Shown in pieces: positions 12,884 to 51,247 of a stretch of 51,247 nt of DNA. The stretch's first letter is position 1. Each line of letters starts with the position of its first letter. This DNA is from Elusimicrobiota bacterium (GTDB lineage Bacteria; Elusimicrobiota; Elusimicrobia; UBA1565; UBA9628). The DNA lies in assembly GCA_016207605.1 (NCBI GenBank), contig JACQPJ010000050.1:1-51247 (forward strand), written 5' to 3'. A program made the position numbers and the translations under genes. Under the pieces are notes generated by a model. The model saw only the letters and a list, made by a program, of their open reading frames with translations. It searched no databases and had not been told where the DNA came from.

Positions 12884-14761
12884 ATGGCCGACCCTCCTCG
12901 TCCCGCCGCTTCCCCCGCGGGCCCCGCCGCGCGCTTCGAGCGCCTCAGCTTGGAGGCCCTCCAGGCCGTCGGCAAGGCCCTGGGCCAGCTCGCGCTCTAC
13001 AAGCCCGACCACCCGGCCGTGGCCGAGACCCTGCAGAAGGCGCTGGACGGCCTGGAAGCCGCCTTGGCCCTGGCGCCGGAGCAGACCTTGGTGGTCGGGC
13101 TGGATCAGTCCAAGCTGCTCGTCAACGGCCGCGTCGCCGCCGACGCCGCGCAGGCCCCCAAGGCGGTCGTCGGGCTCCTCGGACGCTTCAAGCTCTCCAG
13201 CCTCACCTTTTGTGCCGGGCTCGCCCGGCCGGAGCTGGCCGCGCTCTGCGAGCTGGCCGCGTCCCGGGCGGACTCGCCCGCGGCCGCCGACCCCGCGGGC
13301 TTTCTCGCCGCGCGCGGGGTCTCCCGCGTCCTCCTCAACGAGGCCGTCTATCGTCGCGCCAAGCCCGGCGCCGGAGACGGGAGCGGCGGCGGGGACGCCG
13401 GCTCCGCCGCCCGGGAGTCGATCCGCGACATCGACCACGCCATCCAGTCGGGCTCCCTCGAGCGCACGGTGCTGTCTTTGGTCGAGAAGTCGGTCCCGGA
13501 CGCGGCTCTGCGCCGGATGGTGATCGGGCAGGTCCTCGCCCTCCTGGAGAAGGACGTCGCCCGGCACGTCGACGAGGTGACCCGTCCGCTCCAGCGCGAG
13601 AAGAAGGCGCTGGAGAACGAGGGCGCGCGCACCGTCGGCGTGATCCAGAGCATGGCCGAGGGCGTGGTGGTGGTCGACGAGCAGGGCCGCATCCTCATGA
13701 TGAACCCGGCCGCGGAGCAGATCTACGGCGAACCCCTGGCCAAGGCCGCGGGACGGCTCATCACCGAGAAGATCAGCGACCAGTTCGTCGTAACCCTGGC
13801 CGCGGAGCTCCAGACGCCGGCGGACCGGGACATCGCCCCGGACGTCAGGGTCCAGGGCGTTGCCGATACGCGCAAGACCGTCCGGGCCTCCGGCGCCGTG
13901 GTCCAGACCGAGCAGGGCAAGGTCGTCGGCCTCATGACCGCGCTGACGGACGTCGCCAAGCACCGCGAGCTCCAGCGCATGCAGAGGGACTTCGTCGCCC
14001 ACGTGACGCACGAGCTGCGCGCCCCGCTCTCCTCCGTCCGCGCCGCGCTGGAGATCCTCCAGACGGAGTTCCGCTCCAAGCTCGACGAGGACTGGAGCCG
14101 CGTCCTGGACACGGCTCTCAGGAACTCCGACCGCCTGGCCCAGGTGATCAACGGCATCCTGGACTTCTCCAAGATCGAGTCCGGGCAGATGACGGTCCGC
14201 CTCAAGCCGTCCGATCCCGCCGAGATCGCCCGCGAGGCCGCGGACAGCCTCGCGGCGTGGGCGCAGAAAAAGGGCCTGCCCCTGGAGCTGGAGCCTTCCG
14301 CCGGCCTGCCCTTCGTCCAGGCCGACGCGTCGCGCGCCGTCCAGGTGCTGGTCAATCTGCTCTCCAATGCCATCAAGTTCACGCCGTCGGCCGGCCGCGT
14401 CGGGCTGGCGCTTTGCCGGCATGAAGAGGGCGGCGCGGTCTTCGTCCGGTTCACCGTCTCGGACACGGGGCCCGGCGTCGCCCCCGCCGACCAGCCGCGC
14501 GTCTTCGACAAGTTCGTGCAGGCCTCCGCGGGCCTGGCGCACCAGGGCGGCACGGGCCTGGGGCTGTCCATCGCCAAGGCCCTGGTCGAGCTTCAGAATG
14601 GGCGCATCTGGGTCGAGAGCCGTCCCGGCAAGGGCGCCGCGTTCTCCTTCATCCTGCCCGTCTCCACGGCGCAGGTCGTCGAGGTCGCCGCCGTCCGGTC
14701 GCGCCCCTCGACCGCCGGACCGTCCGCGCCGTGGTGGAAGCGCCTCCTCGGCCTCAGCTAG
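12884..14761 (+). CDS. soluble PAS-domain sensor histidine kinase
   Basis: 625 residues without membrane segments. Residues ~20-160 form a helical domain containing LGQLALYKPDHPAV, a pattern I associate with sensory and HD-GYP proteins but cannot name. A PAS domain (GVIQSMAEGVVVVDEQGRIL) is at ~250-350. HisKA follows with the phospho-acceptor in FVAHVTHELRAPLS, then HATPase_c with N-box NLLSNAIKFTP, G1 SDTGPGV and G2 GTGLGLSIAK. It presumably autophosphorylates in response to a cytoplasmic signal. No response regulator is adjacent, so it is an orphan here. ATG 12884 follows GGGGG. Its stop TAG is the first codon of repeat copy 2. Confidence 0.9.
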   Translation: MADPPRPAASPAGPAARFERLSLEALQAVGKALGQLALYKPDHPAVAETLQKALDGLEAALALAPEQTLVVGLDQSKLLVNGRVAADAAQAPKAVVGLLGRFKLSSLTFCAGLARPELAALCELAASRADSPAAADPAGFLAARGVSRVLLNEAVYRRAKPGAGDGSGGGDAGSAARESIRDIDHAIQSGSLERTVLSLVEKSVPDAALRRMVIGQVLALLEKDVARHVDEVTRPLQREKKALENEGARTVGVIQSMAEGVVVVDEQGRILMMNPAAEQIYGEPLAKAAGRLITEKISDQFVVTLAAELQTPADRDIAPDVRVQGVADTRKTVRASGAVVQTEQGKVVGLMTALTDVAKHRELQRMQRDFVAHVTHELRAPLSSVRAALEILQTEFRSKLDEDWSRVLDTALRNSDRLAQVINGILDFSKIESGQMTVRLKPSDPAEIAREAADSLAAWAQKKGLPLELEPSAGLPFVQADASRAVQVLVNLLSNAIKFTPSAGRVGLALCRHEEGGAVFVRFTVSDTGPGVAPADQPRVFDKFVQASAGLAHQGGTGLGLSIAKALVELQNGRIWVESRPGKGAAFSFILPVSTAQVVEVAAVRSRPSTAGPSAPWWKRLLGLS

Positions 14762-14818
14762 GCCGCGATCCTGCGGACGCGGCACAGATGCGCTGAGGAA
14801 AGCCCTGATAGCATCTAG
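14759..14818. repeat. double stem-loop intergenic repeat, copy 2
   Basis: A 60-bp copy of the element at 52-110, with the same hairpin A (GCCGCG/CGCGGC) and hairpin B (AGATGC/GCATCT). Only the hairpin B loop differs. It sits exactly between convergent genes: the leading TAG is the stop of the histidine kinase and the trailing CTA is the reverse-strand stop of comF. Confidence 0.85.
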
Positions 14819-28736: not shown

Positions 28737-29729
28737 ATGGCTTCCTCGGCTTCCCGTTTCCGGCCGGAGTTGCGCGCCCCAGGGACGCCCTCGCCGCGCT
28801 GTCCGGCCTGCGGCTCGAGCGAGGCTGAGTCCGAGCCTTCCGTCGAGCCCGGCTTCGCGCTGCTGCGTTGCCGCGACTGCGGCCTGGGCCGCACCTGGCC
28901 GCCGGAGAGCCCGGAGCGCGTCGGCGCCTGGTACCCGGAGCGCTACTACGGCAAGGGCAACGTCCGCTTCAACGCGCTCTTCGAGCGCCTGGTGCGCTGG
29001 TTCCGCCGGCGGCGGGCGCGGGTGCTCCACAACCGCGTGCCGCGCGGGCCGGTCCTGGACGTGGGCTGCGGGCGCGGCCTCCTGCTCTGCTACCTGCGCG
29101 CGTTGGGCTACGAGCCGCGCGGCGTCGAGCTCTCCGAGACCGCAGCCCGCCACGCCCGCGACGTGCTCGGCCTGCCCGTCGCCGTCGAGGACTTCGCGGC
29201 CTCCTCCGGGGACGCGGGGCTCTACCACGCGGTCGTCTTCTGGCATTCCCTGGAGCACTTTCCCGACCCGTTCGCCGCGCTCTCGCGCGCCCATGAGGTC
29301 CTCAAGGCCGGCGGGCTTCTGGCCGTGGCCGTGCCCAACTACGACGGCTGGCAGGCGCGCGCCTTCGGCCGCTGGTGGTTCCATCTGGACGTGCCGCGCC
29401 ACTACTTCCACTTTGGGATGCGGTCCTTGGAGGCGGTCCTGACCCGGCACCGATTCCGCGTGGTCCGGCTCGACCACTTCAGCCTGGAGCAGAACCCCTA
29501 CGGCATCCTGCAAAGCCTCTACAATCGGCTGGGTTTTCGCTTCAACCTGCTCTATTCCCTGCTCAAGGATCGCAGCGCCCGCACCGAGACGGTGCGGCAC
29601 TATCCGTTCCAGACGGCGGCGATCGCCCTGCTCCTGCCCTTTCTCGCGCCGCTGAGCCTCCTGCTGGCCCTCATGGAAACCGCCCTGCGTTCGGGCGGGA
29701 CCATCGAGGTCTACGCGCTCAAGGAATGA
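28737..29729 (+). CDS. class I SAM-dependent methyltransferase with N-terminal zinc ribbon
   Basis: 330 residues. The N-terminal CPACGS...RCRDCG is a four-cysteine zinc ribbon, common in methyltransferases of sugar biosynthesis clusters. The SAM motif is VLDVGCGRGLLL, with the acidic ELSE two strands later and FWHSLEHFPDP as motif for the catalytic region. The C-terminal ~50 residues contain a hydrophobic hairpin (AIALLLPFLAPLSLLLALME), so it may attach to the membrane. It is probably a sugar or lipid-linked glycan methyltransferase. No Shine-Dalgarno is visible. The stop overlaps the start of the next gene (ATGA). Confidence 0.85.
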   Translation: MASSASRFRPELRAPGTPSPRCPACGSSEAESEPSVEPGFALLRCRDCGLGRTWPPESPERVGAWYPERYYGKGNVRFNALFERLVRWFRRRRARVLHNRVPRGPVLDVGCGRGLLLCYLRALGYEPRGVELSETAARHARDVLGLPVAVEDFAASSGDAGLYHAVVFWHSLEHFPDPFAALSRAHEVLKAGGLLAVAVPNYDGWQARAFGRWWFHLDVPRHYFHFGMRSLEAVLTRHRFRVVRLDHFSLEQNPYGILQSLYNRLGFRFNLLYSLLKDRSARTETVRHYPFQTAAIALLLPFLAPLSLLLALMETALRSGGTIEVYALKE

Positions 29730-31195
29730 CGCCCTCGTCCCGCAAGGTCTGGCTGGCGGCCGCCGCGGCCGGCCTTTCCCTCCTGGTTCACGCCAAGGGG
29801 CTGCGCGCGCCCCTGCTCGACTACCACTTCCACCGCCAGGTCAACACCGCAGCCGTCGCCCGCAACTATTGGCGCGAGCGCCGCCCCCTGCTTGAGCCCC
29901 GCATCGACTGGGAGGGCCCCGAGGACCGTCTCGCGGCGACCGAGCTCCCCGTGTACATGTGGCTCTACGGCAAGCTGTGGCCGATCCTCGGTCTCGGGGA
30001 GTCCTGGGGCCGGATTCTTTCGGCCGCCGCCTCGGCGCTGACCGCGCTGTTCCTTTTCTTCCTCTTCGACCGCGAGCTGGGGACCGAGGCCGCCTTCCTC
30101 GGCGCGGGCCTGTTCTCGTTCCTGCCGCTCGAGGTCTATTTCGGCCGCACGGTCCAGCCGGAGGCCGCGGCCCTGCTGGGCGGCGTCGCCGCGCTCTATT
30201 TCTGGGACCGCGCCCTGGAGCGCGGGAGGCCTTGGGGCCCCTGGCTTGCGGCGACGTTCTGCGTCTTCCTTGCCGTGGGCCTCAAGATCGCCTACGCTTA
30301 TCTCTTCGTTCCCCTCGCGGGATTGACGTGGCGCCGCCTGGGACGCGCGTCGTGGTCCGACGGGCGGACCTGGGCGGCGGGGCTGCTCTCGATGGCCGGC
30401 GTCGCGGCCTGGTATCTCTACGCCAGCCAAGGCGTGTACGTCGTGCCCACGCACGCGGGGGAGTTCCTCAACATCCTGGAGTACCGCCGCCTGCCCTACT
30501 TCCTGCAGTTCCTGGTCCTCTCCCGCTTTCTGGAGCTGGTCCTCACCTACGGGGGAGCCGTCCTCTTCTTCTTCGGCGCGCGAGAGGTCCTCCTGCGCCG
30601 CCGCGATGCCTTCTGGATCGCCTGGCTGGGCGGGGCGTTCCTGCACATCCCCGCGCTGGGCGCCTACGGCCATTCCCACGAATACACCGCCCTGCCGCTG
30701 GTCCCCGTCGCCGCAGGACTGATGGGAGAGGGCCTGCGCCTCCTGAAAGCGCGCGCGTCGTCCGTTCCCGCGCCGCGGCGCGCTTGGGCCTTGGCCGGCG
30801 TCGCGCTGCTTGCCCTGGCGGTTCCGGTCCACGCGGCCCTGCGCGTGGGGCATTGGTACCGCCAGGGCTTCGGGTACCTCGCCCGCGCCCGCGAGGCGGC
30901 CGCCGCGGTCAGCGCGCCGGGCGACTTGTTCCACACCGGCTGCCGCGCGCCCTCGGTGGCGCTTTACTACCTTGACCGGCGTGGTTGGTCCAACGAACTG
31001 GAGACGCGGACACCGGCCGACGCCCTGGGCCTCATCGCCGCCAGGGCGCGCCAGGGCGCGCGTTTCCTCGCCGTCGAGAAGACAGGGCTGTTCGCCGATC
31101 CCGGCGGCTCGCTTTGGCGCGCGCTGCGCGCGCGCTCCGCGCCGGCCTGGGACGACGGGGCGCTGGCGATCTTCCCCAGGAGCGTGTCCGAGTAA
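29726..31195 (+). CDS. GT39-like polytopic membrane glycosyltransferase
   Basis: 489 residues with about 10 membrane segments. The first periplasmic loop has HFHRQVNTAAVARNYWRERR, and the next has EVYFGRTVQPEAAALLGG. This architecture is that of ArnT/PMT-type (GT39/GT83, PF13231-like) transferases using polyprenyl-phosphate sugars on the periplasmic side. The sugar and acceptor are unknown. It is coupled to the methyltransferase upstream. The final codons (RSVSE and stop) lie inside the left arm of the large nested palindrome. Confidence 0.75.
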   Translation: MTPSSRKVWLAAAAAGLSLLVHAKGLRAPLLDYHFHRQVNTAAVARNYWRERRPLLEPRIDWEGPEDRLAATELPVYMWLYGKLWPILGLGESWGRILSAAASALTALFLFFLFDRELGTEAAFLGAGLFSFLPLEVYFGRTVQPEAAALLGGVAALYFWDRALERGRPWGPWLAATFCVFLAVGLKIAYAYLFVPLAGLTWRRLGRASWSDGRTWAAGLLSMAGVAAWYLYASQGVYVVPTHAGEFLNILEYRRLPYFLQFLVLSRFLELVLTYGGAVLFFFGAREVLLRRRDAFWIAWLGGAFLHIPALGAYGHSHEYTALPLVPVAAGLMGEGLRLLKARASSVPAPRRAWALAGVALLALAVPVHAALRVGHWYRQGFGYLARAREAAAAVSAPGDLFHTGCRAPSVALYYLDRRGWSNELETRTPADALGLIAARARQGARFLAVEKTGLFADPGGSLWRALRARSAPAWDDGALAIFPRSVSE

Positions 31196-31210
31196 TAGCG
31201 TGGTCCTCGG
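31178..31210 (+). repeat. outer inverted repeat, left arm
   Basis: A 33-base arm that pairs with 31456-31488 with a single G-T type mismatch. It covers the last five codons and the stop of the upstream glycosyltransferase gene and encloses all three hairpins of the array. Confidence 0.9.
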
Positions 31211-31304
31211 AGGAACAGGTTTGAGTGCCGGCAAGGCGCGACGAGCGAGGATAGCATCGCTATCTGAGCGAGGAGCAACGCGGCCGACGCTCAAACCTGT
31301 TCCT
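31211..31304 (+). repeat. conserved-core palindromic element, copy 1
   Basis: Arms AGGAACAGGTTTGAG (31211-31225) and CTCAAACCTGTTCCT (31290-31304) are perfect. Inside is the core GGCGCGACGAGCGAG (31235-31249), an apical stem GATAGC-atc-GCTATC, then TGAGCGAGGAGCAACG (31265-31280). The same core with different stems occurs in two further copies. Confidence 0.9.
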
Positions 31305-31317
31305 CCCTTTCCTACCG

Positions 31318-31348
31318 TGTTTTTCGTCGGCAACGCCGACGAAAAACA
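31318..31348. repeat. 14-bp perfect hairpin between the two palindromic elements
   Basis: TGTTTTTCGTCGGC pairs with GCCGACGAAAAACA around the triloop AAC. CCCTT (31305-31309) and AAGGG (31351-31355) extend the structure. It could be a bidirectional transcription stop between the convergent genes, although the T-run lies inside the stem. Confidence 0.85.
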
Positions 31349-31359
31349 TCAAGGGAAGG

Positions 31360-31456
31360 GTCAAACGCCTTTGACTTCCCGCGTTGTTGCTCGTCGCTTA
31401 CATACCTACCGGTATGCTCGCTCCTCGCGCCTAGCGGGAAGTCAAAGGCGTTTGAC
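31360..31456 (-). repeat. conserved-core palindromic element, copy 2 (inverted)
   Basis: Perfect 23-bp arms occupy 31360-31382 and 31434-31456. In minus-strand orientation the interior is GGCGCGAGGAGCGAG, apical stem CATACC-ggta-GGTATG, then TAAGCGACGAGCAACAACG, matching the core of copies 1 and 3. The arms are unrelated in sequence to those of the other copies. Confidence 0.9.
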
Positions 31457-31488
31457 CGAGGGCCACGCTATTACTCGGACACGCTCCT
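31456..31488 (-). repeat. outer inverted repeat, right arm
   Basis: The reverse complement of 31178-31210 with one mismatch. It contains the last two bases of the TAG stop of the minus-strand glycosyltransferase gene, so both convergent genes finish within the same duplicated sequence. Confidence 0.9.
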
Positions 31489-33631
31489 ACGGCACCGTCA
31501 GGCGCCCGTCCCGGATCGTGAGGCCGGGGACGTCGATGAAGAAGGGCGTCTCCGGGTTCGGGTCCAGGGAGAGCCGCAGCTCCTTGATCGGCCTAAACAG
31601 CGCCGCCGGAAGCGGCGCGTCGGCGTAGCGCGCCGAGATCACGCGCACGCGCAGTCGGCGGGCCGCCGGGTCCAGCTCCAAGGCGGCCTCCGCGGAGACC
31701 GGCCGCCCCCGCCAGCGGCCCGCGGCGCGCACGGTCTTGTCCAGGCGGACCTCGTCGAGCCTCAGGCCCGGCAGGCGCTTCTCCAGGAAGATCTTGAGGT
31801 CGGCGGCGTCCACGCGCAGGCCGGAGACCTTGACTCTCTTCAAGCGCAGGAGGCGCAGGTCTTTCCAGTCGTAGTCGCCCCGGCCTCCCTCGTAGAGCGG
31901 GACGAAGGCGAAGTCCTCCAGTTCCGCCGCGGCTTCGCGCACGGCCAGACCCTTGATCTCCAGCCGGTCGGCCGCCAGCCGGACGTTCGTCCAGGCCGAC
32001 CGCGCCGCATCCCAGGGGCCCAAGGAGACGCGCAGGTCCGTGATCTTCACGCCTCCGGCCTCGGTGTAGGCGTAAGTCAGCGCGCGGCCGGCGACGGGCT
32101 TAGGGCGCGAGCGGCGTTGGCGATAGAGGACGGCGACGCTGCCGTCGGGCAGAGGCCAGCGCGCGGCGGGCTCATAGGCCAGCTGGAACCAGCCGCCCGG
32201 CCGGCGGATTTCCGCGGCGGCCTCCGGGAGGCCGCTGATGACGCTCTCCGGGCCCAGCCGGCCGTCCTTGAGCAGGACGAACTCGGAGAGCTCGCAGAGG
32301 CGGCGGTTGACGCCGCGCAGGCGGGCGTGGGGCAGGCCGAGCAGGCGCTCATGCCAATGGAAGGTGGGGCCGTTGAAGTAGGCGTCGTTGGCCACCAACG
32401 TGACGTTGGTCAGCGGCCGCGAGGGGTCGCGTTCCGCCTCGATGCGCCGCAGGATTTCCGGAATCCTCCAATTCTCGCGCTCCGGAGGGCGGTTGGCCAA
32501 GAACGTGAGGGGCATGAGCGGGGTCTGTAGCCGCAGGGGTCCGATCCAGCCGAAGACGAAGTTGGCGGCCCCGGCAAGCTGGACGGCCGTCGCGCCCCAG
32601 ACCAGCCAGCCCGGCCAGGCGGCCGCGAAGGCGACGCCCAGCGGGATGAGGCCGGGGAGGAGGAAGCGCATTTGGCGGTTGGGCACGATGGTCCAGAACG
32701 CGTAGGAGGTGACGATCCAGGCCGTCAGCAGCCAAACGTCCCCGAAACGGGGCCGGCGCTGGGGCAGCAGGAGGCCGACGAGCCCCAGGCCCCAGAGCAG
32801 GGGGCCCAGGTCCCCGCAGGCCGAGACGAGGTAGGCCGCCCAGGCGCCCGGCTTCCAAAACGGCACCGCGGCGTCGGCGGAGGCCTGCAGAAGCCGCGCG
32901 GGCAGGATCAGGACGTGCGACCAGTACCAGGGGCCGCTCAGGGCCAAGGCCAGCGCGGCCGCGGCCAGCGCCTTCCAGCGCGCGCTGGGGGTCCGCAGGG
33001 CGCGCGCGCCGAGGAGAGCGGCGGGGAGGAAGTAGCTGAAGAAGCTCCACTTGTGCAGCATGCCCGTCGCGAACAGGAGCCCGAAGGCGAGCGAGCCGGG
33101 CCAGAGCGTGAAGCCCTCCGCGGCCAGCAGGGCCCAGTAGGCGGCCGCGGCCCAGGCCGCGACGGAGAGATCGAGCAGCTGGGTGGTGCACAGCTCCTGG
33201 ACGACGGGCGCGGCGCAGAAGGACAGAGCCGCGGCCAGGGCCCGTCCGTCGGGGAGGAAGCGCCGGGCCAGGCCGAAGAGGGAGACGGCCAGGATGGCCA
33301 GGTAGAACCAGTTGTACCGGAGCGCCGCGCGCGCCGGATCGGGCGAGTCGTAGGCGCCGCGCAGGAGCAGGTGATAGGCGGGGGGGAACGGAGGCATGCC
33401 GGGCTTGGGCGCCAGGTACCAGAAGTCGCCCCAGCGTCCGGCGCCGATCGCCTGGCGGTAGTCGAGGGCGATCTCGAGGTGGTCGGCCTGGTCCCAGGAG
33501 GGGGGACGCGTGTCCACGCGGATGAAGTGGCGCAGGAGCAGGCCCTGCAGGACCAGAAATCCCGCCAAGCCGAGCAGGCTCAAGGCCAACGTGAGGCGCG
33601 AACTTCGCGCAGGGGGCTCCGTGTCCTCCAT
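31487..33631 (-). CDS. GT39-like membrane glycosyltransferase fused to a DUF2993/LmeA-like domain
   Basis: 714 residues. The N-terminal ~530 residues form an ArnT/PMT-like transferase: first loop PPSWDQADHLEIALDYRQAI (acidic catalytic pair region), PGMPPFPPAYHLLLRGAYD, and about 10 membrane spans. From ~560 the protein changes to a soluble, beta-rich domain (LTYAYTEAGGVKITDLRVSL, then KVSGLRVDAADLKIFLE and DAPLPAALFRPIKELRLSL) that resembles DUF2993/LmeA lipid-binding proteins. A lipid-binding module attached to a polyprenyl-phosphate-dependent transferase would be mechanistically sensible. ATG 33631 is preferred because ATG 33640 lies inside the TACAAT promoter box. Confidence 0.75.
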   Translation of the reverse strand: MEDTEPPARSSRLTLALSLLGLAGFLVLQGLLLRHFIRVDTRPPSWDQADHLEIALDYRQAIGAGRWGDFWYLAPKPGMPPFPPAYHLLLRGAYDSPDPARAALRYNWFYLAILAVSLFGLARRFLPDGRALAAALSFCAAPVVQELCTTQLLDLSVAAWAAAAYWALLAAEGFTLWPGSLAFGLLFATGMLHKWSFFSYFLPAALLGARALRTPSARWKALAAAALALALSGPWYWSHVLILPARLLQASADAAVPFWKPGAWAAYLVSACGDLGPLLWGLGLVGLLLPQRRPRFGDVWLLTAWIVTSYAFWTIVPNRQMRFLLPGLIPLGVAFAAAWPGWLVWGATAVQLAGAANFVFGWIGPLRLQTPLMPLTFLANRPPERENWRIPEILRRIEAERDPSRPLTNVTLVANDAYFNGPTFHWHERLLGLPHARLRGVNRRLCELSEFVLLKDGRLGPESVISGLPEAAAEIRRPGGWFQLAYEPAARWPLPDGSVAVLYRQRRSRPKPVAGRALTYAYTEAGGVKITDLRVSLGPWDAARSAWTNVRLAADRLEIKGLAVREAAAELEDFAFVPLYEGGRGDYDWKDLRLLRLKRVKVSGLRVDAADLKIFLEKRLPGLRLDEVRLDKTVRAAGRWRGRPVSAEAALELDPAARRLRVRVISARYADAPLPAALFRPIKELRLSLDPNPETPFFIDVPGLTIRDGRLTVP

Positions 33632-33638
33632 GCCGTCC

Positions 33639-33644
33639 ATTGTA
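33639..33644 (-). promoter_or_regulatory. -10 box of leaderless GT39-fusion gene
   Basis: TACAAT on the minus strand ends 7 bases before ATG 33631. It overlaps the alternative ATG at 33640, which decides the start. Confidence 0.45.
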
Positions 33645-33683
33645 TCTAACAAAGGAACGACGGAGCGGGTCTCCGCAATTTTG

Positions 33684-33689
33684 TAGAAT
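33684..33689 (+). promoter_or_regulatory. -10 box of the GDP-mannose-type operon
   Basis: TAGAAT ends 9 bases before ATG 33699, giving a leader of about 2 bases. No Shine-Dalgarno is present. Confidence 0.4.
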
Positions 33690-33698
33690 CCGCGCCGA

Positions 33699-34721
33699 AT
33701 GAAAGCGGCGATCCTCATCGGCGGCCGAGGCACGCGTCTGAGGCCCTTCACCCTGGAGGCGCCCAAGCCCCTCCTGCCCGTGCTCAACCGGCCTTTCCTT
33801 GAATATCAATTCCAGGTCCTGCGGCGGCATGGGGTGCGGGAGGTGGTCCTGTGCGTCTCCTACCGGGCGGAGGCGTTCCACCGCGTCTTCGGCTCCGGAC
33901 GCCGGCTCGGCCTGCGGCTGAGCTACGCGCGCGAGACCCTGCCTTTAGGCACCGGCGGCGCGCTCAAGAACGCGGAGCGCCTGCTGCGCGGGGGGCCTTG
34001 CCTGGTCCTCAACGGGGACGTGCTCAACGCCTTCGACCTCGGCGTCTTCCGGCGCTTCCACCGCGCGCGCCGAGCGGAGATCTCCATCGCGCTGACCCGG
34101 GTCAAGGACCCGACCCTCTACGGCCTCGTCCTGACCGACGAGACGGGCCGCGTGCGGCGCTTCCTGGAGAAGCCCTCCTGGGACGAGGTCGAGAGCAACG
34201 CGGTCAACGCCGGCGCCTATCTGTTCGAGCCCTCGGTCTTCGCGCATATCCCGGCGGGCAAGCCCTACTCGCTCGAGCGCGGGCTCTTCCCCGAGCGTCT
34301 GGCCGCGGGCGCGCGGCTGGGCGGCTGGGTGGCGCCCGGCTACTGGATCGACATCGGCACGGTGGAGAAGTACCTTCAGGTGCACCTCGACATCCTGGAA
34401 GGCCGCACGCCCTTCGCGCCTGGGGCCGGGGCGCGCCCCCTGCGCGGCGCCGACGGCGCGCGCGCGGTCGCGGGGCCGGGCGCGCGCGTGGCGCCCTTCG
34501 CGCGCTTTTCCGGCGCGGTCAGCCTGGGCAGCGGCGTGCGCGTCGGGCGCGGCGCCCAGCTCTCGGACTGCGTGGTGCTCGACGGCGCGGTCCTGGGCGA
34601 CGGCGCGCGGCTGGAGCGCTGCGTGGTGGGTCCGCGCGCGCGCGTGGGCACGCACGCCGCGCTGGGCCCGGGGACGGCGCTGGCGGGCGGCTCGCGCGTG
34701 GGAGACTACAGCCAGCTGTGA
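33699..34721 (+). CDS. sugar-1-phosphate nucleotidyltransferase (mannose-1-P guanylyltransferase-like)
   Basis: 340 residues. The NTP-binding loop is LIGGRGTRLRPFTLEAPKPL, NGDV is the metal-binding motif and FLEKPSWDEV the sugar-phosphate site. After ~250 residues a left-handed beta-helix of hexapeptide repeats follows (GSGVRVGRGAQLSDCVVLDG). The layout is that of eukaryotic-like GMPPB and bacterial ManC/HddC-type enzymes. The adjacent mannose-6-P isomerase-like cupin and phosphomannomutase suggest GDP-mannose or a related GDP-sugar, but UDP- or dTDP-sugar specificity cannot be excluded. Its stop overlaps the next start (GTGA). Confidence 0.85.
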   Translation: MKAAILIGGRGTRLRPFTLEAPKPLLPVLNRPFLEYQFQVLRRHGVREVVLCVSYRAEAFHRVFGSGRRLGLRLSYARETLPLGTGGALKNAERLLRGGPCLVLNGDVLNAFDLGVFRRFHRARRAEISIALTRVKDPTLYGLVLTDETGRVRRFLEKPSWDEVESNAVNAGAYLFEPSVFAHIPAGKPYSLERGLFPERLAAGARLGGWVAPGYWIDIGTVEKYLQVHLDILEGRTPFAPGAGARPLRGADGARAVAGPGARVAPFARFSGAVSLGSGVRVGRGAQLSDCVVLDGAVLGDGARLERCVVGPRARVGTHAALGPGTALAGGSRVGDYSQL

Positions 34722-36489: not shown

Positions 36490-36550
36490 GTGTTATGAAC
36501 CATTCCTCAGCACACCTGTGTCGAGCCCGCAGGGTCGAGGCCTAGACGTT

Positions 36551-50028: not shown

Positions 50029-51126
50029 TTAGGCGGCGTAAAGACGGGAAAGTTCCGCGATCATTCGGCCGCGGGAGAAGTCGCGGCGGACGCGGTCGCG
50101 GGCGGCGGCGCCCAGGCGGCGACGGAGGCTTGCGTCGTCGGTGAGAAGCTGGCAGCGCTCCAGCAGTTCGACTTCCGATTTGACCAGGAAACCGGTGATC
50201 CCGTCCTGGACGGCGTCGCGGTTGCCGGGGACGTCGGAGGCGACGACAGGCAGGCCGGCGGCCATGGCCTCGAGGACGGCGTTGGGCAGGCCCTCCCAGC
50301 GGGAGTAGTGGACGAAGACGTCGAGGCCGCGCAGGCGCTCGCGGGCCTGCTCGGTCGGGAGCCAGCCGGTGACCTCGGCCTTGGCGCCGAGATTCATGTC
50401 GAGGAGGCGTCTTTTAAGCCGCGCCTCGTCCTCGCCGCCGCCGATCCAGAGTCCGCGCAGGCCGTCGCGGGAGTCGGTCAGGCGCTGGACCAGGAGGACC
50501 CAGGCGTCGGGGTCGCGGGCGTAGGAGACGCGGCCGCAGGAGCCGACGATCAGGCCGTCGTGGGGCAGGGGCCCGGGAAAATCGCCCAGGTAGGCGTCGC
50601 AGACCGTATGGACGGGGCGGCGGGCGAGCCGGGCGGCGAGCGCGGCCTCGCTGGGCGAGACGGCGACGATTTCCCCGATCCGGGACAGCGCGATCTCAGC
50701 CGCGCGGTAGAGCGCGCGGGAGGCCGCCGAGCGGTCCCCCATCTGGAAGGCGTAGCCGCGCGGGCTGTAGAAGACGCGGGGCACGCCCGCCAGGGCCGCT
50801 GCGGCGCGGGCCAAGGCACCGGCCTTCGAGGAGTGCGCGTGGACCGCGTTGGGGCGGCGTTCTATGAAGATGCGCCGCAGGATTTGGAGAGCTTTGACGT
50901 CCCGGCCGGGCGAGATCTCGCGCGTCATCTCGGGGACGTGGTAGGCGAAGCGCGCGCCGGGGCACTTGGCGCGGTAGTCCTCGGGCGTTCCGGAGCGGAC
51001 CGCGTAGACGAGGGAGACCTCGAAGCGCTCCGGGTCCAGGCCGTTGCAGATGGCGGCGACCTGCTCGCCCGTGCCCCCGGGCCCGCCGCACTCGACGACC
51101 TGGAAGACCTTAGGGGTTGCAATCAA
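50029..51126 (-). CDS. family 4 glycosyltransferase
   Basis: 365 residues, GT-B fold. VVECGGPGGTGEQVAAICNG resembles the acceptor-side loop of WcaA/EpsF-like enzymes. HAHSSKAGALARAAAALAGV is typical of GT4 (the H-S-SKAG-L-R-A motif), and the EX7E region is SRWEGLPNAVLEAMAAGLPV. It is similar in its C-terminal half to the enzyme at 45534. It acts on cytoplasmic lipid-linked or free glycan. TTG 51126 is the only start that keeps the first beta strand (VFQVVECGG). A TATTAT box abuts it, so the true promoter must lie further upstream. The palindromic element copy 3 lies 16 bp upstream. Confidence 0.88.
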   Translation of the reverse strand: MIATPKVFQVVECGGPGGTGEQVAAICNGLDPERFEVSLVYAVRSGTPEDYRAKCPGARFAYHVPEMTREISPGRDVKALQILRRIFIERRPNAVHAHSSKAGALARAAAALAGVPRVFYSPRGYAFQMGDRSAASRALYRAAEIALSRIGEIVAVSPSEAALAARLARRPVHTVCDAYLGDFPGPLPHDGLIVGSCGRVSYARDPDAWVLLVQRLTDSRDGLRGLWIGGGEDEARLKRRLLDMNLGAKAEVTGWLPTEQARERLRGLDVFVHYSRWEGLPNAVLEAMAAGLPVVASDVPGNRDAVQDGITGFLVKSEVELLERCQLLTDDASLRRRLGAAARDRVRRDFSRGRMIAELSRLYAA

Positions 51127-51142
51127 ATAATATGACCGTTTT

Positions 51143-51243
51143 GGCGACCCGAGTCTGTGGCGATTTCGAGGCGCGACGAGGGAGCATAGCCGGAGGCTAT
51201 GTGACCGAGGAGCAACGAAGAAATAGACCAGAATCGGGTCGCC
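51143..51243 (+). repeat. conserved-core palindromic element, copy 3
   Basis: Arms GGCGACCCGAGTCTG (51143-51157) and CAGAATCGGGTCGCC (51229-51243) pair with one mismatch. The core is GAGGCGCGACGAGGGAG (51168-51184), apical stem CATAGCC-gga-GGCTATG, then TGACCGAGGAGCAACG (51202-51217). It is the same core as in the pair at 31.2-31.5 kb with entirely different arms. Confidence 0.9.
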
Positions 51244-51247
51244 CCAT

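Follow-up and report, generated by a model that had tools for sequence, protein, structure and literature searches.

The 311-bp nested palindrome at positions 31178-31488 of the window, the whole 51,247-nucleotide contig of an Elusimicrobiota bacterium analyzed here, is a member of a family of small non-coding mobile elements that had not been catalogued before. The family is dispersed and has been mobile recently; its members bear terminal inverted repeats, use C-TA-G or C-TWA-G as targets and duplicate TWA. Insertion is often at gene ends, and in the window the target was the stop-codon overlap of two convergent genes. The locus, together with a second element at the end of the window, comprises the following features.

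29375-31195, + strand: convergent gene on the upstream side, encoding a PMT_2-type membrane protein; the element contains its last codons and stop
31178-31210, unstranded: left terminal inverted repeat, 33 bp; the upstream gene gains its new TAA stop (31193-31195) here
31211-31303, + strand: hairpin 1
31235-31281, + strand: G.A core of hairpin 1, with tandem G.A pairs on the + strand
31304-31359, unstranded: middle hairpin, 15 + 9 pairs in the fold; its presence varies among other family members
31360-31455, - strand: hairpin 2, with the core in inverted orientation
31386-31431, - strand: G.A core of hairpin 2, with tandem G.A pairs on the - strand
31456-31488, unstranded: right terminal inverted repeat, 33 bp, with one wobble against the left arm
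31487-33787, - strand: convergent gene on the downstream side, conserved in congeners and without a Pfam match; the right end of the element is overlapped by its stop
51113-51247, unstranded: second element, truncated at the contig end; its terminal repeat, AGGGGTTGCAATCAAATAATATGACC, differs from that of the first

An outer inverted repeat of 33 bp with one mismatch, closing over three hairpins, had been described in an earlier note on this DNA and is present as described; the mismatch is a T.G wobble, and the two arms form the longest inverted repeat in the window. All three hairpins were recovered, with two corrections. The middle one is longer in the fold than the 14 bp given. The seemingly unpaired centers of hairpins 1 and 2 hold related, oppositely oriented cores, paired via tandem G.A mismatches. 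The comparison with shuffled sequences that the earlier note had proposed gave a far stronger fold for the native sequence, with a DNA fold of -127.9 kcal/mol for the window element versus -55.5 +/- 3.8 for the shuffles (z -19.0), and -127.5 kcal/mol (z -18.3) for the bare element alone.

The three-hairpin plan, for which no element class had been known to the earlier note, is not unique to the window. A second intact 311-bp copy (94%) is located in the same genome at C42:10633-10943, a third copy (78%) was found in the congener G001, and a differently ended relative with the same plan occurs in G042. Approximately 100 relatives of 160-390 bp with one to three hairpins were collected from other Elusimicrobiota, Acidobacteria, Myxococcales, Gemmatimonadetes and more. 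The relatives search gave matches in 20 of its 58 genomes (the window's own genome counted among the 58). In about 45 elements from the class the terminal repeats span ~24-40 bp, and most of these elements measure 238-390 bp; the terminal inverted repeats are mostly 32-36 bp long and often perfect. Elements in other phyla are mostly single-hairpin and ~150-215 bp in length. A degenerate core pattern matched at least 114 stretches in named genomes, and the record titles among the matches listed include Elusimicrobia, Acidobacteria, Myxococcales, Gemmatimonadetes, Deltaproteobacteria/Thermodesulfobacteriota, Proteobacteria, PVC and Clostridia; since these records come from metagenome bins, isolated odd titles may be binning errors. 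The phages, plasmids and viral contigs searched contained no elements, and the papers listed as matching the core sequence were all unrelated.

A second family with other terminal repeats was detected on several contigs, including the window's own end. Other contigs of the same genome also end inside second-family elements. Elements coincide with contig ends in draft assemblies, which they appear to break.

The conserved heart of the family is a hairpin of roughly 46 nt, in which the apparent mismatches are tandem G.A pairs. On one strand the core forms a helix that alternates tandem A.G/G.A pairs with Watson-Crick pairs; in two-core elements the G.A form appears in the left core when the + strand is read and in the right core when the - strand is read, and this inverted arrangement leaves each strand with one well-folding hairpin. 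Several comparisons show that the predicted core structure has been kept through compensatory change across phyla. The core pattern left two position pairs free as C or G on either side, and these S-S positions are Watson-Crick in 48 and 53 of the 55 distinct cores. The window copy and that of G001 are separated by 20 double Watson-Crick changes. In a cross-phylum alignment of 26 elements from several phyla, 92.3% of the cells are paired, both sides have changed in 14 of 20 pairs, and the covariation score is 0.401, versus 0.134 +/- 0.015 for shuffled alignments and <0.07 for slid partners. The G.A positions are nearly invariant in 62 Elusimicrobiota cores, which were picked by a scan that itself favors G.A pairs there. 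A symmetric double-stranded protein site was rejected as the sole explanation of the core because the A.G/G.A positions break the two-fold symmetry while the neighboring pairs covary. With RNA parameters the G.A strand folds in the covarying register at -18 to -21 kcal/mol, compared with -11 to -13 for the other strand; DNA energy parameters applied to the isolated core did not recover this register, so the DNA form of the core fold is a prediction.

Mobility of the family is documented by its target sites. The duplications among readable ends are TTA/TTA (19) and TAA/TAA (19), against 2 elements with palindromic TAA/TTA, and 26 elements are set between CTA and TAG, the remaining ends being imperfect or not cleanly parsed by the script; these counts fit the targets C-TWA-G, with TWA duplicated, and C-TA-G. 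Copies within one genome can be 95-99.7% identical, which points to recent movement. In several congeners (L389, L390, L392, L395) the genes that flank the window element abut without it and share a CTAG or CTAA stop overlap, and thus the empty site is seen directly. The window element itself is flanked by CCAG and CTAC, with no clean duplication, and the upstream gene now stops at the TAA inside the element. Of the three origins that the earlier note had offered, a transposition product is the one supported, by the dispersed copies, terminal inverted repeats, target duplications and empty sites; a replication or segregation structure is not supported, given the many copies per genome in ordinary intergenic sites.

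The elements are probably transposable but non-autonomous, with a putative mobility enzyme reading the G.A hairpin as a single strand, and we hold this explanation with moderate confidence. An enzyme acting in trans would mobilize them by recognizing the single-stranded core hairpin, tandem G.A pairs included, as suggested by the covariation. The inverted arrangement of two-core elements would offer one recognizable hairpin on each strand, as in REPINs, and the terminal repeats would determine where the element ends and which target it enters. Palindromic stop overlaps would tolerate an insertion, since both stops would be restored by the duplicated target or by a TAA/TAG of the element itself. 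The use of stop codons shared by convergent genes as an insertion site shows a low-cost way into dense genomes. More tentatively, the G.A-paired single-strand hairpin could be the hallmark of a class of mobile elements that occurs in at least half a dozen phyla and depends on an enzyme belonging to neither the known Y1 nor the known insertion-sequence transposases, although we regard this extension as doubtful. REP and MITE families tend to occur in few species. A structured core that is kept across phyla in chromosomes and has recently moved, without an identifiable mover, turns the search for the enzyme into a concrete, testable question.

No enzyme mobilizing the elements was identified among the families and genomes searched. 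Ordinary MITEs, in which a DDE transposase binds the double-stranded terminal repeats while the hairpins are passengers whose palindromy is maintained by template switching or repair, are an unlikely alternative. Terminal repeats and 2-4 bp duplications at YTAR sites fit such DDE-moved elements equally well, which counts against the explanation preferred here, and an ISAzo13 copy in G063 combines a TAA duplication with ends of a similar style. On the other hand, passive hairpin repair would erase the G.A pairs, yet these are nearly invariant. In addition, no longer element with the same ends was found among the matches listed in the genomes searched, where end pairs occur only at short spacing. 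Four DDE families tried as movers were rejected, being absent from all or most of the carriers tested: PF01609 is missing from G000, G019, G020 and G023, PF07592 from 19 of 21 genomes, PF13359 from 15 of 15, and PF13546 from 14 of 15, all within the limits set by draft genomes (the window's own genome is 75% complete). An autonomous partner may reside outside the searched genomes or belong to a family beyond these four, such as IS630 (PF13358). Like the bacterial MITEs Nezha, ERIC and Correia, the elements are non-coding, have terminal inverted repeats and a short target-site duplication, and may give structured transcripts. In contrast to these MITEs, they have a conserved internal G.A hairpin common to elements with unlike ends, and no matching insertion sequence was found for them. 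The elements fit the structural features of a MITE except for the matching autonomous element.

A role at the RNA level, whereby structured RNA formed at the 3' end of each gene would stabilize or end transcripts or itself be recognized, appears improbable. This role would agree with the better fold of the G.A strand under RNA than under DNA parameters, and with the genomic setting, which by crude ORF calls, and with some two-hairpin elements entered twice, is convergent for 23 elements versus divergent for 12. By the same crude calls the G.A strand at tandem genes is sense in 23 cases and antisense in 20; this lack of a sense-strand bias argues for a role at the DNA level without proving it. 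No intrinsic terminator was found, and Rfam 15 gave no match above the gathering score, a weak sX8 match falling below the threshold. The strong bidirectional transcription barrier proposed in the earlier note is conceivable as a side effect of the structure, but the lack of an intrinsic terminator and of a strand bias speaks against it.

By working principle, the closest known systems are REPINs and MITEs, neither of which is matched fully. In REP/REPIN (BIME) systems with the transposase TnpAREP (RAYT), small extragenic palindromes at 3' ends form inverted pairs with one functional hairpin per strand and conserved mismatches inside the stem (PMC8266576), and all these traits have counterparts in our elements, the strand-specific hairpin with conserved stem mismatches as a predicted structure. 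As a precedent for the proposed recognition, the conserved stem mismatches of E. coli REPs are required by TnpAREP, which binds the single-stranded REP and not its complement (PMC8266576). The differences are that the elements reach 160-390 bp, carry long terminal repeats and target duplications, and have a core conserved across phyla. They also lack the GTAG tag at the hairpin foot, their ends being mostly CTAG, CTTA(G) or CTAA(G), and in the genomes tested there is no consistent genomic Y1 transposase gene flanked by elements; because these two defining features were not found, we did not file the elements as REPINs.

That the elements are true REPINs mobilized by a REP-associated Y1 transposase is accordingly very improbable, despite the two inverted structured hairpins. 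Target duplications, moreover, would not be expected from Y1 transposition. A promising case was G019, where both Y1 transposase genes (L284, L285) lie directly downstream of an element. Nevertheless, these are the only two of roughly 80 Y1 loci that carry a G.A element, and one of them has orthologs in genomes that yielded no element as well. Y1 genes are missing from several element-rich genomes and rarely adjoin elements, and G060, with ~43 elements, has no Y1 candidate at all. In G033 an ortholog adjoins a palindrome that lacks the core. REP-associated Y1 transposases were rejected as movers on the strength of this coreless palindrome and of the other Y1 loci without elements.

Two further kinds of repeat were compared. 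REPs have been described as small, 20-40 bp, with CGTC-REPs tagged by CGTC at one end (PMC3733652). Such CGTC-tagged REPs (PMC3733652) resemble our elements as palindromic repeats without a dedicated transposase, whereas ours greatly exceed them in size, bear terminal repeats and differ in the core; CGTC is found within the complement of the core and not as a terminal tag. Quadruplexes of AGCGA-rich DNA have been reported for four AGCGA tracts (PMC5442326); the core of the second family (L008, L009) has four such tracts, whereas core 1 of the window has only two.

An assembly artefact or chance palindrome, which a single window of a draft assembly might have suggested, can be dismissed, as intact independent copies exist both on C42 of the same genome and in a second assembly, G001, and empty sites occur in congeners.

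Several minor observations concern derived or neighboring repeats. L062 and L045 are single-hairpin elements that look like products of recombination at the inverted cores, one arm apparently derived from hairpin 1 and the other from hairpin 2. L011 (G000:C56:6017-6042) is a lone 26-bp terminal repeat right after a TAG stop that runs into the start region of the next gene, and is possibly the remnant of an element. A separate repeat of 43-45 bp starting with CTAGGCC is present in the window at 51-95, 14758-14802 and 36503-36545 (inverted), the copies being 96% and 84% alike. The copy at 36503 is immediately behind the stop of a gene, and a similar sequence adjoins the element in C37.
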